From Thermoplasmata archaeon (GTDB taxonomy: Archaea; Thermoplasmatota; Thermoplasmata; Lutacidiplasmatales; UBA184), in NCBI GenBank assembly GCA_030037735.1, contig JASHQC010000042.1, positions 1 to 42,955 on the forward strand: 42,955 nt of DNA. The letters run 5' to 3'. Positions 557-20,068 of this stretch are shown here, piece after piece. The position numbers and the translations under genes were made by a program. The notes under the pieces are model-generated. The model saw only the letters and a program-made list of their open reading frames with translations, was not told where the DNA came from and did not search any database. Each line of letters begins with the position of its first letter. Position 1 is the stretch's first letter.

Positions 557-1717
557 CTACGGTCCGTCCCGTGCCATACGGTCCTGATAGTACGCGTCGA
601 AATCCCAGACGAGGGTTTCCTGCTCGCTGTACCGGCCGCCGTGCCAGTTTCGCGTCTGGGTCCCCTTCTGGGCCAGCTCGCAGACATGCCAGTCCTGCTT
701 GTTGATGATGTCCCAGACCCCGACCGCATCGCTCGGATCGAAGTCCGGCTTCGCCATCTCCCTCGGGTCGAAGTAGAAGCTGTTCTCGACCCGGGAGCGG
801 CTGGGAGAGGTTGGCCAAGTAGAGTGAACCATCAGGTAGTCGGGGTGCAGGCTGAAGAAGGTGTTCGGCCAGAGCACGTAGTAGTAGATCCGCTTCCGGT
901 CCTCATCGGTCATGCCGGGGAGCGGCGACCGGCGCGTGTAGCCGGTCATCGTCATGGACGTGTAGTCGCCGGCGAATGTTTGGTAGCCGCCGGCGAACTG
1001 TCCCTCTCCCTCCGTGAAGAACGCATCGTTGTCGCCGGTCATGTACGGCGTGATCCGGTTGAGCTCGGGATGGATCGGCGCACAGTGGTAGCACTCGGAG
1101 TAGTTCTCGACGAGCAGCTTCCAGTTGGCCTCGATATCGTACGTGTGCGTGGGGCCGGGCCGGAGTTGGGCGAGCGGGAACCGGGCCATCCGGTCGAGGA
1201 AGGGACCGAGCTGCGCGCGCAGGGGCGCCGCGTTCGGATCCAGATTGATCCACAGGAACCCGGCCGCGCTCTCGACGTGCACGGGGAAGAGCCCATTGTC
1301 CTTCTTGCGGAATCCCTGGACGGCCTGCATGTGGCCAGCGCCCTGCAGCTGGCCGTCCAGGCCGTAGGTCCAGGCATGGTACGGACAGACGATTGACCGG
1401 AGCCCGGAACCGCATGGCGCCTCCAGGAGCTGGGTTCCACGGTGTCGACAGACGTTCTGGAACCCTCGGACCTGGCCCTCCTTGTCTCGGAGCAGTATGA
1501 TGTCCTCCGTTCCGATCGTTCGAGTCAGGTAATCGCCGGTCTTGGGGATCTGCTCGGCGCGGCCAACGAGGAGCCAGCTCCGGTAGTAGAACCGGTCCAG
1601 TTCCGTGCGCAGCACACCCTCGTCCTGGTAGACGTGCCCATCGGGGGTGGTGCCGGTGAGGTGCCCCGTCGGCTCGCCCGGGCGAACACCCTTCCGTCCG
1701 CTTGCAAGCGCCGACAT
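557..1717 (-). CDS. Rieske [2Fe-2S] non-heme iron oxygenase alpha subunit (choline monooxygenase / ring-hydroxylating dioxygenase-like)
   Basis: CRHRGTQL and CPYHAWTYGLDG Rieske motifs; ENYSECYHCAPIHPEL mononuclear iron motif; NWKLLVENYSECYH signature of the catalytic domain. Confidence 0.94.
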   Translation of the reverse strand: MSALASGRKGVRPGEPTGHLTGTTPDGHVYQDEGVLRTELDRFYYRSWLLVGRAEQIPKTGDYLTRTIGTEDIILLRDKEGQVRGFQNVCRHRGTQLLEAPCGSGLRSIVCPYHAWTYGLDGQLQGAGHMQAVQGFRKKDNGLFPVHVESAAGFLWINLDPNAAPLRAQLGPFLDRMARFPLAQLRPGPTHTYDIEANWKLLVENYSECYHCAPIHPELNRITPYMTGDNDAFFTEGEGQFAGGYQTFAGDYTSMTMTGYTRRSPLPGMTDEDRKRIYYYVLWPNTFFSLHPDYLMVHSTWPTSPSRSRVENSFYFDPREMAKPDFDPSDAVGVWDIINKQDWHVCELAQKGTQTRNWHGGRYSEQETLVWDFDAYYQDRMARDGP

Positions 1718-1741
1718 AACCGGAACAGGACCGCGCCGCGC

Positions 1742-1748
1742 ATAAAAA
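1742..1748 (-). promoter_or_regulatory. Putative archaeal TATA box for the Rieske operon
   Basis: Minus strand AGTTTTTATGCG, centre about 28 bp upstream of the ATG at 1717, as expected for a leaderless transcript. Confidence 0.5.
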
Positions 1749-1902
1749 CTTGGCGCCAGAGCGGGTATTGACCCGTCATTTCGATACGGTTGACCCCTCT
1801 ATCCTGTGTATTGAACCCGCAAGCCTCAATGCAGCACCGGGCTGCTGTAAGCCTACCCCGGGGGTTCTATGGTCTATCTCGTGCAGGAATGCTGAAACAG
1901 CG

Positions 1903-2000
1903 TTTTTGGTGCGAAAAATGACGATTTTGTACGAAATTATTCCGTTTTGGACTGAATCCGGGAGCAAAACTGGTCCGAAAGTGAATGATTTGGAACAGAA
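1903..2000. repeat. Five degenerate iteron-like direct repeats, consensus about TTTTGGnnCnGAAA, spaced 20-23 bp
   Basis: TTTTTGGTGCGAAAAA (1903), ATTTTGTACGAAAT (1924), TTTTGGACTGAAT (1945), AACTGGTCCGAAAGT (1968), ATTTGGAACAGAATC (1988); the GG core (a single G in copy 2) lies at 1908, 1929, 1949, 1972, 1992. Confidence 0.55.
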
Positions 2001-2044
2001 TCGGCGGCGGGAGTCCTCGGTCCGTCATCGGAGCGCCGGGGCGG

Positions 2045-3394
2045 TTAGCTTCCGGTGCCCGGTCGCCGCAGGGCCGCCTCGATCGTGTCGAGCCCCACAT
2101 CGAGGGTTTCCGGTTCGATCGTGAGCGGAGGCTCGATGCGGACGACGTGATCGCCGTAGTTCCAGAGCGGTATCGTGCCGTTCTTGACGCACTCTCGAAA
2201 CACGCGACGTCCGAGATCCGCGTCCGCCTTCCGGGAGCGCTTGTCGTGGACGAGCTCGACGGCGAGGCAGAGGCCCAGCCCGCGCACCTCGCCGACGGTC
2301 GGAAGGCGCTCCCACTCCTTCATCCGCCGCAGCGCCGTCGCTCCCAGGCGAGCGGAGCGCTCGGGGAGTTTGTCCCGAACGAGGATCTCGAGGGTCTTGC
2401 TCGCGGCCACGCAGGCGGCCGGATGGCCGGCGAAGGTGGTCCCGGCCGCGACCATCGCCTCGCCCATGACCTCTTCCGTGCCCATTACCGCGGCAACCGG
2501 CATCATTCCGCCCGAGATCCCCTTCCCGATCGCCATGAGGTCCGGGGCCACTCCGAAGTGCTCGATTGCCCACATCTTGCCGGTGCGTCCCAAGCCGGTC
2601 TCCACCTCGTCGTCGATGAAGTACCAGTCGTTCGCTTCGCAGAGCTTCGCCAATCCCCGGACGAATTTCGCCGGAGGGATCCAGATGCCGGCCTCGCAGG
2701 CCACCGGCTCGAGGATCACCCCGGCGATCCGGTCCGGCTCCGCCTGCCGCCCGAGGACCTGCTCCTCGATGTATTCGAGAACCCAGTCCCCATACTCCTC
2801 CTCGCTCATCCCGCGGGGACGACGGTAAGGGAATGGGTAGGGAGCGTACACCGCCCCCCCGCCCCACGCTTCCCAATACCTTCGCTCGTGGGAACTCAGG
2901 CTGCCGATCAAGTTCGCGCCGATTGAGAGACCGTGGTACTGTCCCAGGAAGCTGAGGATCAGCGGACGCTGGCTGGCCTCGACCGCGTGCTTCACTGCGC
3001 CCTCCGCGGCGCCGGTACCGGACAGTTCGAGGAAGACCCGGGACAAGTTGGGGGACGGCCGGTTCTCGATGAGCCGCTCGGCCAGCTCGATCATCGGAAC
3101 GTGGGGCGTCATGAAGTAGGTTAGGAAGCCGTACCGACCCAGCGCCTCGACGGTCGCCTCGAGGACCTCGGGGGGAACGTTCCCGAGGTTGTTCGTTGCC
3201 CACTGGCTCGTGAGGTCGATGTAGGTCTTGCCGGCGGTGTCTCGGACGGTAGAGCCCTTGGCGTCGGCCACAAAGATGCTCGCCAAGCGGGTCTCCTCGG
3301 ACCAGAAGTACCGCGGGTACAGCTCTTGGTACCGTGCCCAGTAGTCGATTCCCGACGGCACGGCCCGCCGGGGGGTGGACGTGGGAGCGGCCAT
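2045..3394 (-). CDS. Class III PLP-dependent aminotransferase (4-aminobutyrate/omega-amino acid aminotransferase-like)
   Basis: FIDDEVETGLGRTGKMWAIEHFGVAPDLMAIGKGISGG (PLP-Lys region), GTTFAGHPAACVA, VLEPVACEAGIWIPP. Confidence 0.92.
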   Translation of the reverse strand: MAAPTSTPRRAVPSGIDYWARYQELYPRYFWSEETRLASIFVADAKGSTVRDTAGKTYIDLTSQWATNNLGNVPPEVLEATVEALGRYGFLTYFMTPHVPMIELAERLIENRPSPNLSRVFLELSGTGAAEGAVKHAVEASQRPLILSFLGQYHGLSIGANLIGSLSSHERRYWEAWGGGAVYAPYPFPYRRPRGMSEEEYGDWVLEYIEEQVLGRQAEPDRIAGVILEPVACEAGIWIPPAKFVRGLAKLCEANDWYFIDDEVETGLGRTGKMWAIEHFGVAPDLMAIGKGISGGMMPVAAVMGTEEVMGEAMVAAGTTFAGHPAACVAASKTLEILVRDKLPERSARLGATALRRMKEWERLPTVGEVRGLGLCLAVELVHDKRSRKADADLGRRVFRECVKNGTIPLWNYGDHVVRIEPPLTIEPETLDVGLDTIEAALRRPGTGS

Positions 3395-16174: not shown

Positions 16175-16225
16175 CTAATGTCGGACCCCCCCACGGGTTG
16201 GGGGATAACATACCTTCCTTGGCCA

Positions 16226-16243
16226 GTCCCCCCGGGCGGGGAC
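16226..16243 (-). terminator. GC-rich hairpin just downstream of the cupin gene
   Basis: Perfect 6-bp stem GTCCCC-CCGGGC-GGGGAC; no following T-run, so only a weak terminator candidate. Confidence 0.25.
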
Positions 16244-16260
16244 CAGAGGGAGTCGCTGCG

Positions 16261-16611
16261 CTATCGCGGGGTCGGCGACTCGGCGGGGGCAAACACGACG
16301 AGCAGCTCGAGCGGTTCTGTCACCGAATGGAAGCGGTGGTCGACCCCCCGAGCCACGAAGATCGTCTCTCCGGGCTCTACCGAGTAGTCCCGGCCCGCGA
16401 TCGTGATCGCTCCCCGGCCGCGGATAACGAAGTAGACTTCGTCCTCCCGGTGAGGGGTCTGAGGATCAACGCCGCCCGCATGCAGGGCATAGAGCCCCGC
16501 GCTCATCGAGCGGACCCGAAGGAACTCGAGGTACAGTCCTCCCGCCCGTTTCCGGCGGGCTTTCATCTCATCGAGGGGAAAGATCGCGCCACTCTTCGGA
16601 GGCGACGGCAT
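16261..16611 (-). CDS. Small cupin-domain protein
   Basis: LHAGGVDPQTPHREDEVYFVIRGRGAITIAGRDYSVEPGETIFVARGVDHRFHSVTEPLELLVVFAP, typical cupin_2 layout. ATG at 16611 preferred over caller start 16782. Confidence 0.9.
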   Translation of the reverse strand: MPSPPKSGAIFPLDEMKARRKRAGGLYLEFLRVRSMSAGLYALHAGGVDPQTPHREDEVYFVIRGRGAITIAGRDYSVEPGETIFVARGVDHRFHSVTEPLELLVVFAPAESPTPR

Positions 16612-16622
16612 CTCGACCTCCT

Positions 16623-18200
16623 CTAGGACCGAGGGACGGGCGAGGGCTCGGCGGCCCGGTGCCAGTCCTCCAGGATCACTTGGGCGGCGTTGTGGCCGGC
16701 AGCCCCGGTCACCCCGCCGCCGGGGTGCGCCGCAGAGCCACACAGATAAAGCCCCTTGAGTGGGGTCCGGTACTGGGCCCACCCCGGCACCGGACGGAAC
16801 GAAAGAATCTGGTCCGGCGTGATATCGCCCTGGAAGATGTTGCCGCCGGTCATGCCGAGGGTTTTCTCGATGTCCTTCGGGGAGATAACCTGCCAGTGCG
16901 CTACGACCTTTCGAATGTTAGGGGCGTACTCGGCGATCGTGTCGAGCACTCGTTCCGCGGCGGTCGGCTTGTACGAATCCCAGTCGGTCCCCCGCAGCTC
17001 CGTCGGCGCATACTGCACGAAGCAGGTCATCGTATGCTTTCCCGGGGGAGCCACAGATGGGTCGAGAACGCTCTGGAAGAGCATCTCGATGAACGGCTGA
17101 GAAGAGAACCGGCCATCGACGGCCTCCCGGTAGCCCCGCTCGAGATACGCCAGCGAAGGGGCAATGTCCACCGTCGAACGGTGGGCGTCGCTGGGCGAGC
17201 CCGGGTCCGCGGTGAATTCGGGAAGACCGCTCAACGCGGCATTGAACTTGAGCGCCGCGCCCCTCGACCGGATCCCACGCACCTCCTTCTCGAACTCGGG
17301 GGAGAGGGATCCGGAGGGAGCCAAACCGAGGAAGGTTGTCCGGGCGTCGGCGTTCGAGGCGACGATCGGAGCCGAGTAGGTCTCTCCGGAGGCCGTCTCT
17401 ACCCCCGTCACTGCACCGCGCTGGACGACGAAGCTCTTCACCGACACCCCGGTCCGGATCTGGACGCCGTTCGCCACGGCGGCCCGGGCCAGCGCCTGCG
17501 TGATCCCACCCATTCCCCCGACGGAGAATCCCCAGACCTGTTTGTGGCCATCCAGAATCCCCACGTTGTGGTGCGCGAGGACGTAGGCGGTTCCGGGAGT
17601 GCTAGGGCCGCACATCGTCCCGATCACCGCGTTCGGAGCGAGGGCGGCCTTGACCTCGTCGGACTCGAACCACTCGTCGAGCAAGTCCTGCGCGCTACGC
17701 AGGAACAGGTCCCGGACCAAGGTCTCGGTCTCCGGGGTCGAGAACATCTGGAACATGTCGGCGAGGGGCACCGGCGGGGCAAGCATCACCGGCTCGATCA
17801 ACTCCAGCACCCGGTCCCAGTACGCGACGTACTTCGGATAGGCCCGAGCGTCGGCCTTGGAGAATTGGGCAATCTCCTGGGCCGCCCGCTCGGTGTCGAC
17901 CCATAACTTGAGGGCCCGTCCGTTGGGGAACGGCATGCAGTACTGCGGGTCGTAGAGAATCGTACGGTACCCGTACTTCGGAAGCTCGAGGTCGTTGACA
18001 ATCTCCTGTCGCAGCAACCCCGCGACGTAGGCGTAGGTGTTGATCCGGAAGCCGGGCCATGTCTCCTCCGAGATTGCGGCGCCGCCCACGATGGGTCTCT
18101 GCTCCAGGACTAGGACCCGGGCACCGGCCCGACCTAGGTAGTTGGCCGCGACCAGTCCGTTGTGGCCTCCCCCGACGACGATGGCGTCCCACGAACTCAC
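16623..18200 (-). CDS. FAD-dependent oxidoreductase, PYROXD2/phytoene desaturase-like (copy 3)
   Basis: MSSWDAIVVGGGHNGLVAANYLGRAGARVLVLEQRPIVGGAAISEETWPGFRINTYAYVAGLL; GLYLCGSAAHPGGGVTGAAGHNAAQ. Confidence 0.93.
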   Translation of the reverse strand: MSSWDAIVVGGGHNGLVAANYLGRAGARVLVLEQRPIVGGAAISEETWPGFRINTYAYVAGLLRQEIVNDLELPKYGYRTILYDPQYCMPFPNGRALKLWVDTERAAQEIAQFSKADARAYPKYVAYWDRVLELIEPVMLAPPVPLADMFQMFSTPETETLVRDLFLRSAQDLLDEWFESDEVKAALAPNAVIGTMCGPSTPGTAYVLAHHNVGILDGHKQVWGFSVGGMGGITQALARAAVANGVQIRTGVSVKSFVVQRGAVTGVETASGETYSAPIVASNADARTTFLGLAPSGSLSPEFEKEVRGIRSRGAALKFNAALSGLPEFTADPGSPSDAHRSTVDIAPSLAYLERGYREAVDGRFSSQPFIEMLFQSVLDPSVAPPGKHTMTCFVQYAPTELRGTDWDSYKPTAAERVLDTIAEYAPNIRKVVAHWQVISPKDIEKTLGMTGGNIFQGDITPDQILSFRPVPGWAQYRTPLKGLYLCGSAAHPGGGVTGAAGHNAAQVILEDWHRAAEPSPVPRS

Positions 18201-18225: not shown

Positions 18226-19884
18226 TCAGAGGGCGTAGTCTCGCGGAAGCGCCTTCAGCTCAGGAAGGGTCTCGTTCACTATCGCGAGGAAGCGCTCGAC
18301 GTCCTTGTCCGAGTGGGTCGTAGAGAAGGTCAACCGCTCGTAGTTGTCGGGGTGGATGTAGATTCCGCGGTCCAAAAGCAGTTGGTGGTGGCGGAGGTAC
18401 AGGTTCCAGTCGATCTGGAGCGACTCGCGGTAGTTGGTGATCTTCTTACGTCGCGTGAAGAAGAACTGGAGCATGCCCGGCACCGATTGGACGAGCACCG
18501 GTAGCTTCGCGTCGCGCGCCGCCGCTTCGATGCCCTTCTCCATCTTGTCGGTCAGGCCCTTGAACCGGTCGTAAATCTCCGCGCCCCCGAGCTGGAGCAG
18601 GCGGAGATTCGCGTAGGCCCCCGCGAGGGTCAGCGAGTTCGCGAAGTAGGTGCCTCCGAAGGAGATCCGCCCCGGGGCGATCAGGTCCATGTACTCCGCC
18701 TTGCCGGACACGGCAGAGATGGGAACTCCCCCGCCCAGGGCCTTCGCCCAGCAGGAGAGGTCGGGCTCGACTTTGTAAACCTCCTGCGCGCCGCCCGGCG
18801 CGATGCGGAAACCGGTGAAGACCTCGTCGAAGATCAGGAGCATGTCGTTCGCGGTGGTGATCTCGCGGAGCTGTTTCAGGTAGTCCGGCGCCGGAGGGAT
18901 GATCCCGGCGTTGGCCATGACCGGTTCGAGAATGACGGCCGCGATCTTGTCCCGGTACCGCTTCACCATCCGCTCGAAGGCGGGGATCGAGTTGTACGGC
19001 GCAACGGTCACGTAGTCCGTGACCCCGGGGGGAATCCCCGCGGAGTTCGGCAGCGGGCGAGGATACTCGTCGAGCCCGGCGACAATCGGGGGCGCCTCCG
19101 CACTGATCAGCGCGTAATCGTGCTGGCCATGATAATGGCCCTCGAACTTGAGTATCCCATCCTTGCCCGTGACCGCTCGAGCGATCCGGATCGCGTTCAT
19201 CGTTGCATCGGAGCCGTTCGAACAGAACGCCACCCGCTCCGCGTTGGGAACTAACTTATGGAACAACGTGGCGACCTCAATCTCGAGCTCCGTCGGGGAG
19301 GCGAAGTGCAACCCCAATTCGGCCTGCTTCTGAATCGCTTTGATCATCTGGGGATGGGCGTGGCCGTTGATCAGACATCCATAGGCCAGGTTGAAGTCGA
19401 GGTACTCGTTCCCGTCCTCGTCCCAGATTTTGGACCCCTTCCCTTTCGCGATGAACGGGGGACAGGGGTCGTACGACGCGACCCGAATGAGCGAGCTCGT
19501 CGAGTTCGGGATGCGCTTCTTACCCTCCTCGAACAACTTCGCGCTCTTCTTGAGCTTGGGAACGAGGCGCGCGATCGGCAGGGGTAAGGGCATCGGCTCT
19601 TCCGCGGCCAGCGTGGCGGACTCCTTTTCCCTCGCCTCCTTGCTCTCTTTCGGCGCGGGGGCTTCCTTCGGTTCCTTGTGCTCTTTCGGGGCTGGACTCT
19701 CCGGGGGCGTCTCGGCCGGGGGATGGGCCGGTGGCTCGACGGCGGCCGGCGGGGTCGCGTTCGCCTCCGCTTGAAGGGAATCGGGAAGACGACGGACGGC
19801 GGGCGCAGGACTCAGGATCCCGTCGGCGTCGGGGGCCGGAACCGGCGCCGGAGGGGCGACGTCCCGGTCCGCCATAAGAAACAC
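18226..19884 (-). CDS. Class III aminotransferase, glutamate-1-semialdehyde aminomutase-like, with about 105-aa Pro/Lys/Glu/Ala-rich N-terminal extension
   Basis: Core GKGSKIWDEDGNEYLDFNLAYGCLINGHAHP, CSNGSDATMNAIRIARAVTGKDGILKFEGHYHGQHD, LLIFDEVFTGFRIAPGG, CWAKALGGGVPISAVSG. Low-complexity extension PAPKEHKEPKEAPAPKESKEAREKE. Confidence 0.92.
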   Translation of the reverse strand: MFLMADRDVAPPAPVPAPDADGILSPAPAVRRLPDSLQAEANATPPAAVEPPAHPPAETPPESPAPKEHKEPKEAPAPKESKEAREKESATLAAEEPMPLPLPIARLVPKLKKSAKLFEEGKKRIPNSTSSLIRVASYDPCPPFIAKGKGSKIWDEDGNEYLDFNLAYGCLINGHAHPQMIKAIQKQAELGLHFASPTELEIEVATLFHKLVPNAERVAFCSNGSDATMNAIRIARAVTGKDGILKFEGHYHGQHDYALISAEAPPIVAGLDEYPRPLPNSAGIPPGVTDYVTVAPYNSIPAFERMVKRYRDKIAAVILEPVMANAGIIPPAPDYLKQLREITTANDMLLIFDEVFTGFRIAPGGAQEVYKVEPDLSCWAKALGGGVPISAVSGKAEYMDLIAPGRISFGGTYFANSLTLAGAYANLRLLQLGGAEIYDRFKGLTDKMEKGIEAAARDAKLPVLVQSVPGMLQFFFTRRKKITNYRESLQIDWNLYLRHHQLLLDRGIYIHPDNYERLTFSTTHSDKDVERFLAIVNETLPELKALPRDYAL

Positions 19885-19916
19885 ATCCTAAGAGGTCCAG
19901 ACCACCCGAACGTCCC

Positions 19917-19924
19917 TATATATA
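19917..19924 (-). promoter_or_regulatory. Putative TATA box (TATATATA) for the aminotransferase gene
   Basis: TATATATA about 37 bp upstream of ATG 19884 in an AT-rich intergenic region. Confidence 0.5.
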
Positions 19925-20068
19925 ATTGGCGCGGCGGGAGAACTTGATATGGGCTTGTACAACCTAAAGCCAGATTATCGTTGGATGGTACATTGTGTAT
20001 GTAATCTTCAAATTTGATAGGTAACCAGCCGAATTTTTATTGTTCGAACGCTCAAAAGTGCCGTTTTC

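Follow-up and report, generated by a model that had tools for sequence, protein, structure and literature searches.

What kind of element occupies the gap between a class-III aminotransferase gene and a Rieske oxygenase gene in a Thermoplasmata archaeon? The question arises in a 42,955-nucleotide stretch of its DNA (hereafter, the window), where an initial reading of the letters, the original prediction, had proposed a five-copy, iteron-like operator array placed on one face of the helix. Direct reading of the sequence located GG cores at 1908, 1949, 1972 and 1992 and a single G at 1929, with spacings of 21, 20, 23 and 20 bp, exactly as had been proposed. The striking AT-richness of the stretch was also evident, as its GC content is 36–46% in a neighbourhood of about 60–75%, and it represents the window's second most AT-rich 100 bp. 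The end of the aminotransferase gene (2045) is 45 bp away from the start of the array, and the five copies lie 186–283 bp ahead of the Rieske start codon (ATG at 1717 on the minus strand), in good agreement with the earlier placement just past the aminotransferase stop and about 190–285 bp upstream of the Rieske start. Since both flanking genes run leftward, the minus strand gives the best reading of the array, with a 14-bp WTTC-N5-NAAW as the repeat unit. Positions 1–21376 of the window form a catabolic cluster that includes two Rieske oxygenases, several FAD amine-oxidase/CrtI-like proteins, two class-III aminotransferases, two aldehyde dehydrogenases, a saccharopine-dehydrogenase-like protein and a peptide-type ABC transporter; most of the neighbouring proteins that were scanned are transporters or enzymes of catabolism.

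The copies are degenerate: that at 1972 carries ACTGG and not TTTTGG, the sites differ much from one another and are individually weak, leave-one-out scores are low in some genomes, and a general repeat finder run on the window did not report the array copies, which are too degenerate for it. The sites are imperfect inverted repeats of 14 bp, with dyad centres that recur inside the array. In the register of the 14-bp units, the A+T fraction averages about 0.4 in the centre and exceeds 0.9 at most arm positions, that is, the centres lean toward G/C and the arms toward A/T. The best chain of five 14-mers spaced 19–24 bp scored 85 for the window array, compared with 59.7 ± 4.0 (maximum 78) in dinucleotide-preserving shuffles of the same AT-rich 125 bp, where 85 or more was reached in 0 of 2,523. 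Shuffled sequence of equal composition thus did not yield equally good repeats; had it done so, the original prediction would by its own terms have been refuted. The five proposed copies were recovered, but a probable sixth copy had been missed, and the unit is better described by the pattern given above. The sixth copy is suggested by an invariant TTC column that lies 19–20 bp beyond element 5 in the alignments, and with it the array would span about 165–285 bp upstream of the Rieske gene (Table 1).

Table 1. Features of the repeat region and its surroundings, in positions of the window.
Feature	Sequence	Positions	Strand	Basis
Element 1	ATTCTGTTCCAAAT	1988-2001	-	chain search and five-genome alignment
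Element 2	TTTCGGACCAGTTT	1967-1980	-	chain search and five-genome alignment
Element 3	ATTCAGTCCAAAAC	1944-1957	-	chain search and five-genome alignment; the region's strongest dyad across five genomes
Element 4	TTTCGTACAAAATC	1923-1936	-	chain search and five-genome alignment
Element 5	TTTCGCACCAAAAA	1903-1916	-	chain search and five-genome alignment
Probable element 6	TTTCAGCATTCCTG (window), TATTCAGCGCTCAA (G002)	about 1884-1897	-	alignments
AT-rich block with A/T tracts phased at 10.5 bp and predicted curvature		1882-2006		
Proximal conserved region, array to TATA box		1750-1883	-	alignment, conservation
Invariant BRE/TATA-like element	GGCGCCAAGTTTTTATG (TTTTTATG at 1741-1748)	1741-1758	-	alignment
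Rieske oxygenase alpha subunit, gene downstream of the promoter		557-1717	-	Pfam Rieske and Ring_hydroxyl_A
Class-III aminotransferase, gene upstream of the array		2045-3394	-	Pfam Aminotran_3
Sister region: AT-rich, predicted to be curved, conserved, with a TATA box	CCAATTATATATAGGG (TATA box)	19885-20068	-	

The genome that holds the window (1.77 Mb in 112 contigs) was compared with five genomes of the same genus (G001–G005). The aminotransferase gene, the intergenic region and the Rieske gene occur in the same order in four of these five relatives (G002, G004, G005 and contig C12 of G003), and alignment of the orthologous intergenic regions, suggested earlier as a check, revealed that the repeats are kept in all four. 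In G001, the region is absent and the Rieske orthologue lies close behind an aldehyde dehydrogenase. G003 carries two Rieske loci (L146 on C12 and L147 on C15), both cut by contig ends, one 96% and the other 83% identical to the window protein; the pair reflects either a second copy or a mixed MAG. Across the five genomes with the region, the roughly 285 bp that precede the ATG can be aligned nearly without indels. Pairwise identity averages 0.70 within the array and 0.72 from the array to the start, whereas four-fold degenerate positions of the Rieske gene give 0.44 and the spacer beyond the region gives 0.41. In this sample of five sequences from one genus, two of which are close to each other, the difference shows that the region is clearly under purifying selection. 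Other intergenic stretches compared with G005 gave pairwise identities of 0.58–0.78, and some of these may contain unannotated genes; the case is therefore built on the five-genome comparison with four-fold sites together with the phasing, and not on pairwise identity. De novo chain searches in each genome recovered five homologous sites with matching spacings (19–24 bp) in all five, and the four relatives taken singly showed weaker self-similarity than the window, with 0–1 of 60 shuffles scoring equally well.

The array makes up no more than the distal portion of this conserved region, which covers about 1717–2003 and reaches the TATA box. The proximal portion of about 130 bp is conserved as strongly as the array, and its conserved blocks, such as AGGCTTACAGCAGCCCGG (1837–1854), CAATACACAGGATAGAG (1797–1813) and TATCGAAAT (1778–1786), recur at about 22 bp with a sequence unlike that of the array. 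The TATA-like element lies about 28 nt from the ATG, a distance from which the Rieske gene start is probably leaderless. In the distal 120 bp, A+T content and conservation both repeat at 10.3–10.5 bp, with the A+T periodicity exceeding the 5% shuffle level in four of the five genomes; in the proximal part, the conservation period peaks at about 22 bp. A wedge model predicted a net bend of 88–146 degrees for the distal block across the five genomes, compared with about 42 degrees in shuffles, and ranked the array as the window's most curved 120 bp; the proximal portion displayed no predicted curvature, with no consistent bend excess under the same model. The A/T tracts phased at 10–11 bp are thus predicted to confer net curvature on the distal DNA. 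The original prediction had covered the array itself, but neither the conserved proximal portion, the predicted curvature, nor the sister region described below.

A profile of the array matched the five known loci with E values of about 1e-28 to 1e-31, giving one strong copy per genome and always at this promoter. Elsewhere in the genus, it returned nothing but one weak partial match in G003 (E = 0.09), and its weak matches outside the genus, mostly in AT-rich genomes, were put down to composition. A BLAST search of the region against 61 genomes gave only short, weak matches beyond the same-genus orthologues. An exact double-site pattern had zero matches in six genomes, known loci included, and is thus too strict. 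A single-site palindrome (GATTCN2TNCCGAATC) had 24 matches; the ones examined beyond the Rieske region stood alone, with no phased array. The literature search found no Thermoplasmata promoters or operators of this kind.

Within the window, a sister region is located in the same cluster, upstream of the second class-III aminotransferase gene (18226–19884). It is the window's most AT-rich stretch and ranks second in predicted curvature, and it is kept in four relatives, almost gap-free, and partly in G001, down to its TATA box. A 210-kb pool was drawn from six genomes and selected to contain these loci; its nine most curved segments, and 10 of its 11 segments with an A+T content of at least 50%, come from the two regions. 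The array site model, when carried over to the sister promoter, matched at inconsistent places and was rejected. Comparison of the two promoter profiles identified one shared block (element 6 and the sister's first block) slightly above the 95% null level, a sequence resemblance that is suggestive only; a pattern derived from this block matched these two promoters only in the six genomes and was set aside as circular. Behind the sister region lie genes for an FAD oxidoreductase, ABC permeases and an ATPase, and an uncalled conserved gene at about 16175–16622. This last stretch, between a permease and the FAD oxidoreductase, displays codon-like conservation in four genomes, is apparently coding and cupin-like by eye, and is absent from the open reading frame picks; 16175–16640 had been taken as a control alignment and was dropped, as it looks like a coding gene.

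We consider it very probable that the Rieske upstream region is a genuine gene-control region and belongs to a general type already known. The explanation that we favor, and consider likely, is a cis-regulatory region with a multi-site operator, in which five to six degenerate 14-bp dyads lie along one helix face of DNA predicted to be curved and serve a putative oligomeric DNA-bending regulator. The sites are two helical turns apart and therefore on one face of the DNA; this spacing, the conservation in four relatives, the 10.5-bp phasing and the selective constraint uphold the proposal of an operator array on one helix face, and it is reasonable to suppose that the putative regulator would bind cooperatively. 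We infer here that the sites are bound by protein, that one oligomeric regulator is responsible and that transcription is affected. Most likely, a helix-turn-helix regulator would sit on adjacent sites, either as several dimers or as a single oligomer, and would bend or wrap some 120 bp; in this way it would set initiation at the Rieske promoter in response to a signal of the surrounding catabolic cluster, either a substrate or an amino acid. The conserved elements over the remaining 130 bp or so would connect the operator to the TATA box for a leaderless mRNA.

A narrower form of this explanation, possible though somewhat doubtful in our judgment, is that the array is in the strict sense the operator of a Lrp/AsnC family member. 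Archaeal Lrp operators comprise clustered, degenerate, imperfect dyads of 13–17 bp, a range that includes the 14-bp sites described here, with two- or three-turn spacing and about 100 bp of wrapped DNA (PMC2995911). The array resembles such operators (Ss-LrpB, Ptr2, FL11 and Sa-Lrp; PMC2995911, PMC4046817 and PMC3584215) in its imperfect-dyad clusters on one face and two turns apart, in its span of about 100 bp and in its setting in amino-acid metabolism; site length, dyad symmetry, clustering, spacing, span and metabolic context thus all fit. In further support, PF01037 proteins occur in all six genomes, including a full HTH + RAM Lrp-type protein near G000:C8:10121. However, archaeal Lrp sites are described as AT-rich in their centres, which the array sites are not. 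The array also contains five to six sites where those operators have two or three, and it lies at least 165 bp from the start. Furthermore, the array has predicted intrinsic curvature, unlike the Sa-Lrp gltB operator, which has no measurable intrinsic bend (PMC3584215). Among the neighbouring proteins scanned, there were no regulator domains and no Lrp gene; the full HTH + RAM protein is unlinked to the cluster, and the family is also present in G001, which is without the array. The PF01037 group common to the five array genomes and absent from G001 was rejected as a candidate, being a stand-alone RAM protein without an HTH. This protein (L182–L186) is highly conserved, and its absence from G001 possibly reflects a gap in an incomplete genome. 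Since the array site centres lean toward G/C, we suggest by analogy that the region would work like an archaeal Lrp operator, not that it is one.

It is rather unlikely that the array works mainly by shape, with phased A/T tracts producing curved DNA that would aid the promoter or hold a general architectural protein, specific recognition of the sequence playing little part. The strong predicted curvature of the array in five genomes and of the sister region, the 10.5-bp A+T period and the dominance of the two regions in the 210-kb pool are all consistent with such a role. Bacterial curved promoter regions carry A/T tracts every 10–11 bp upstream of the promoter, and the A/T tracts of the array are phased in the same manner; unlike those regions, the array has conserved G/C within repeated dyads and ends 130 bp from the TATA box. 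In the five-genome comparison, 33 A/T positions are invariant, but so are 20 G/C positions, which pure A-tract bending would not need; G/C is invariant at set positions of the sites, and the dyads recur. Moreover, histone or HU/HTa family proteins, the only such families sought, were not detected in four genomes of the genus, making a nucleosome-like positioning signal for those proteins unlikely.

Far less probable is that the region, or part of it, is a small RNA or the terminator or 3′ region of the aminotransferase operon, for which the T-rich tracts on the transcribed strand after the aminotransferase stop and a TTTTT run in four of the five genomes might be cited. Consensus folding by RNAalifold gave a covariation term that was a penalty (+7.7), there was no Rfam match, and a bacterial-type scan found no terminator-like site; a terminator would also leave unexplained why 285 bp, as far as the TATA box, are constrained with a helical period. 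RNA-structure signatures are thus absent, as are those of coding: a small protein-coding gene was rejected, since stop codons interrupt all frames in the relatives and no clear three-base periodicity is evident. Plasmid and phage iterons are tandem, near-identical direct repeats about two helical turns apart. The array sites are likewise tandem and about two helical turns apart; unlike iterons, they are degenerate dyads in a chromosomal promoter context, and no replication genes were seen. A replication-origin iteron array finds no support, as the repeats are too degenerate and the neighbours scanned are mostly of the catabolic and transport kind; the term iteron-like is not supported beyond the sense of a repeat for an array in a chromosomal catabolic cluster with no replication gene among the scanned proteins and one copy per genome (n = 5). 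Finally, a chance AT-rich spacer with meaningless repeats is barely credible: the copies are indeed degenerate and individually weak, but no shuffle matched their chain score, and this reading is contradicted by the conservation across five genomes (0.70, where neutral sites give 0.44).

A broader and more speculative proposal, to which we assign a low probability, is that the two regions (1741–2003 and 19885–20068) represent a class of long, enhancer-like, intrinsically curved upstream control regions in a Thermoplasmata genus without detected histone or HU/HTa proteins. A dedicated oligomeric regulator would wrap more than 100 bp on phased elements down to the TATA box, and would thereby couple two operons of one cluster. 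Gene control in uncultured Thermoplasmata is poorly known. A sequence-defined, genus-wide control region of about 285 bp with a clear repeat unit, together with its sister region on a related operon, offers bait for the regulator of an oxidative catabolic cluster, and makes it testable whether archaea without detected histones or HU build wrapped promoter complexes on curved DNA.
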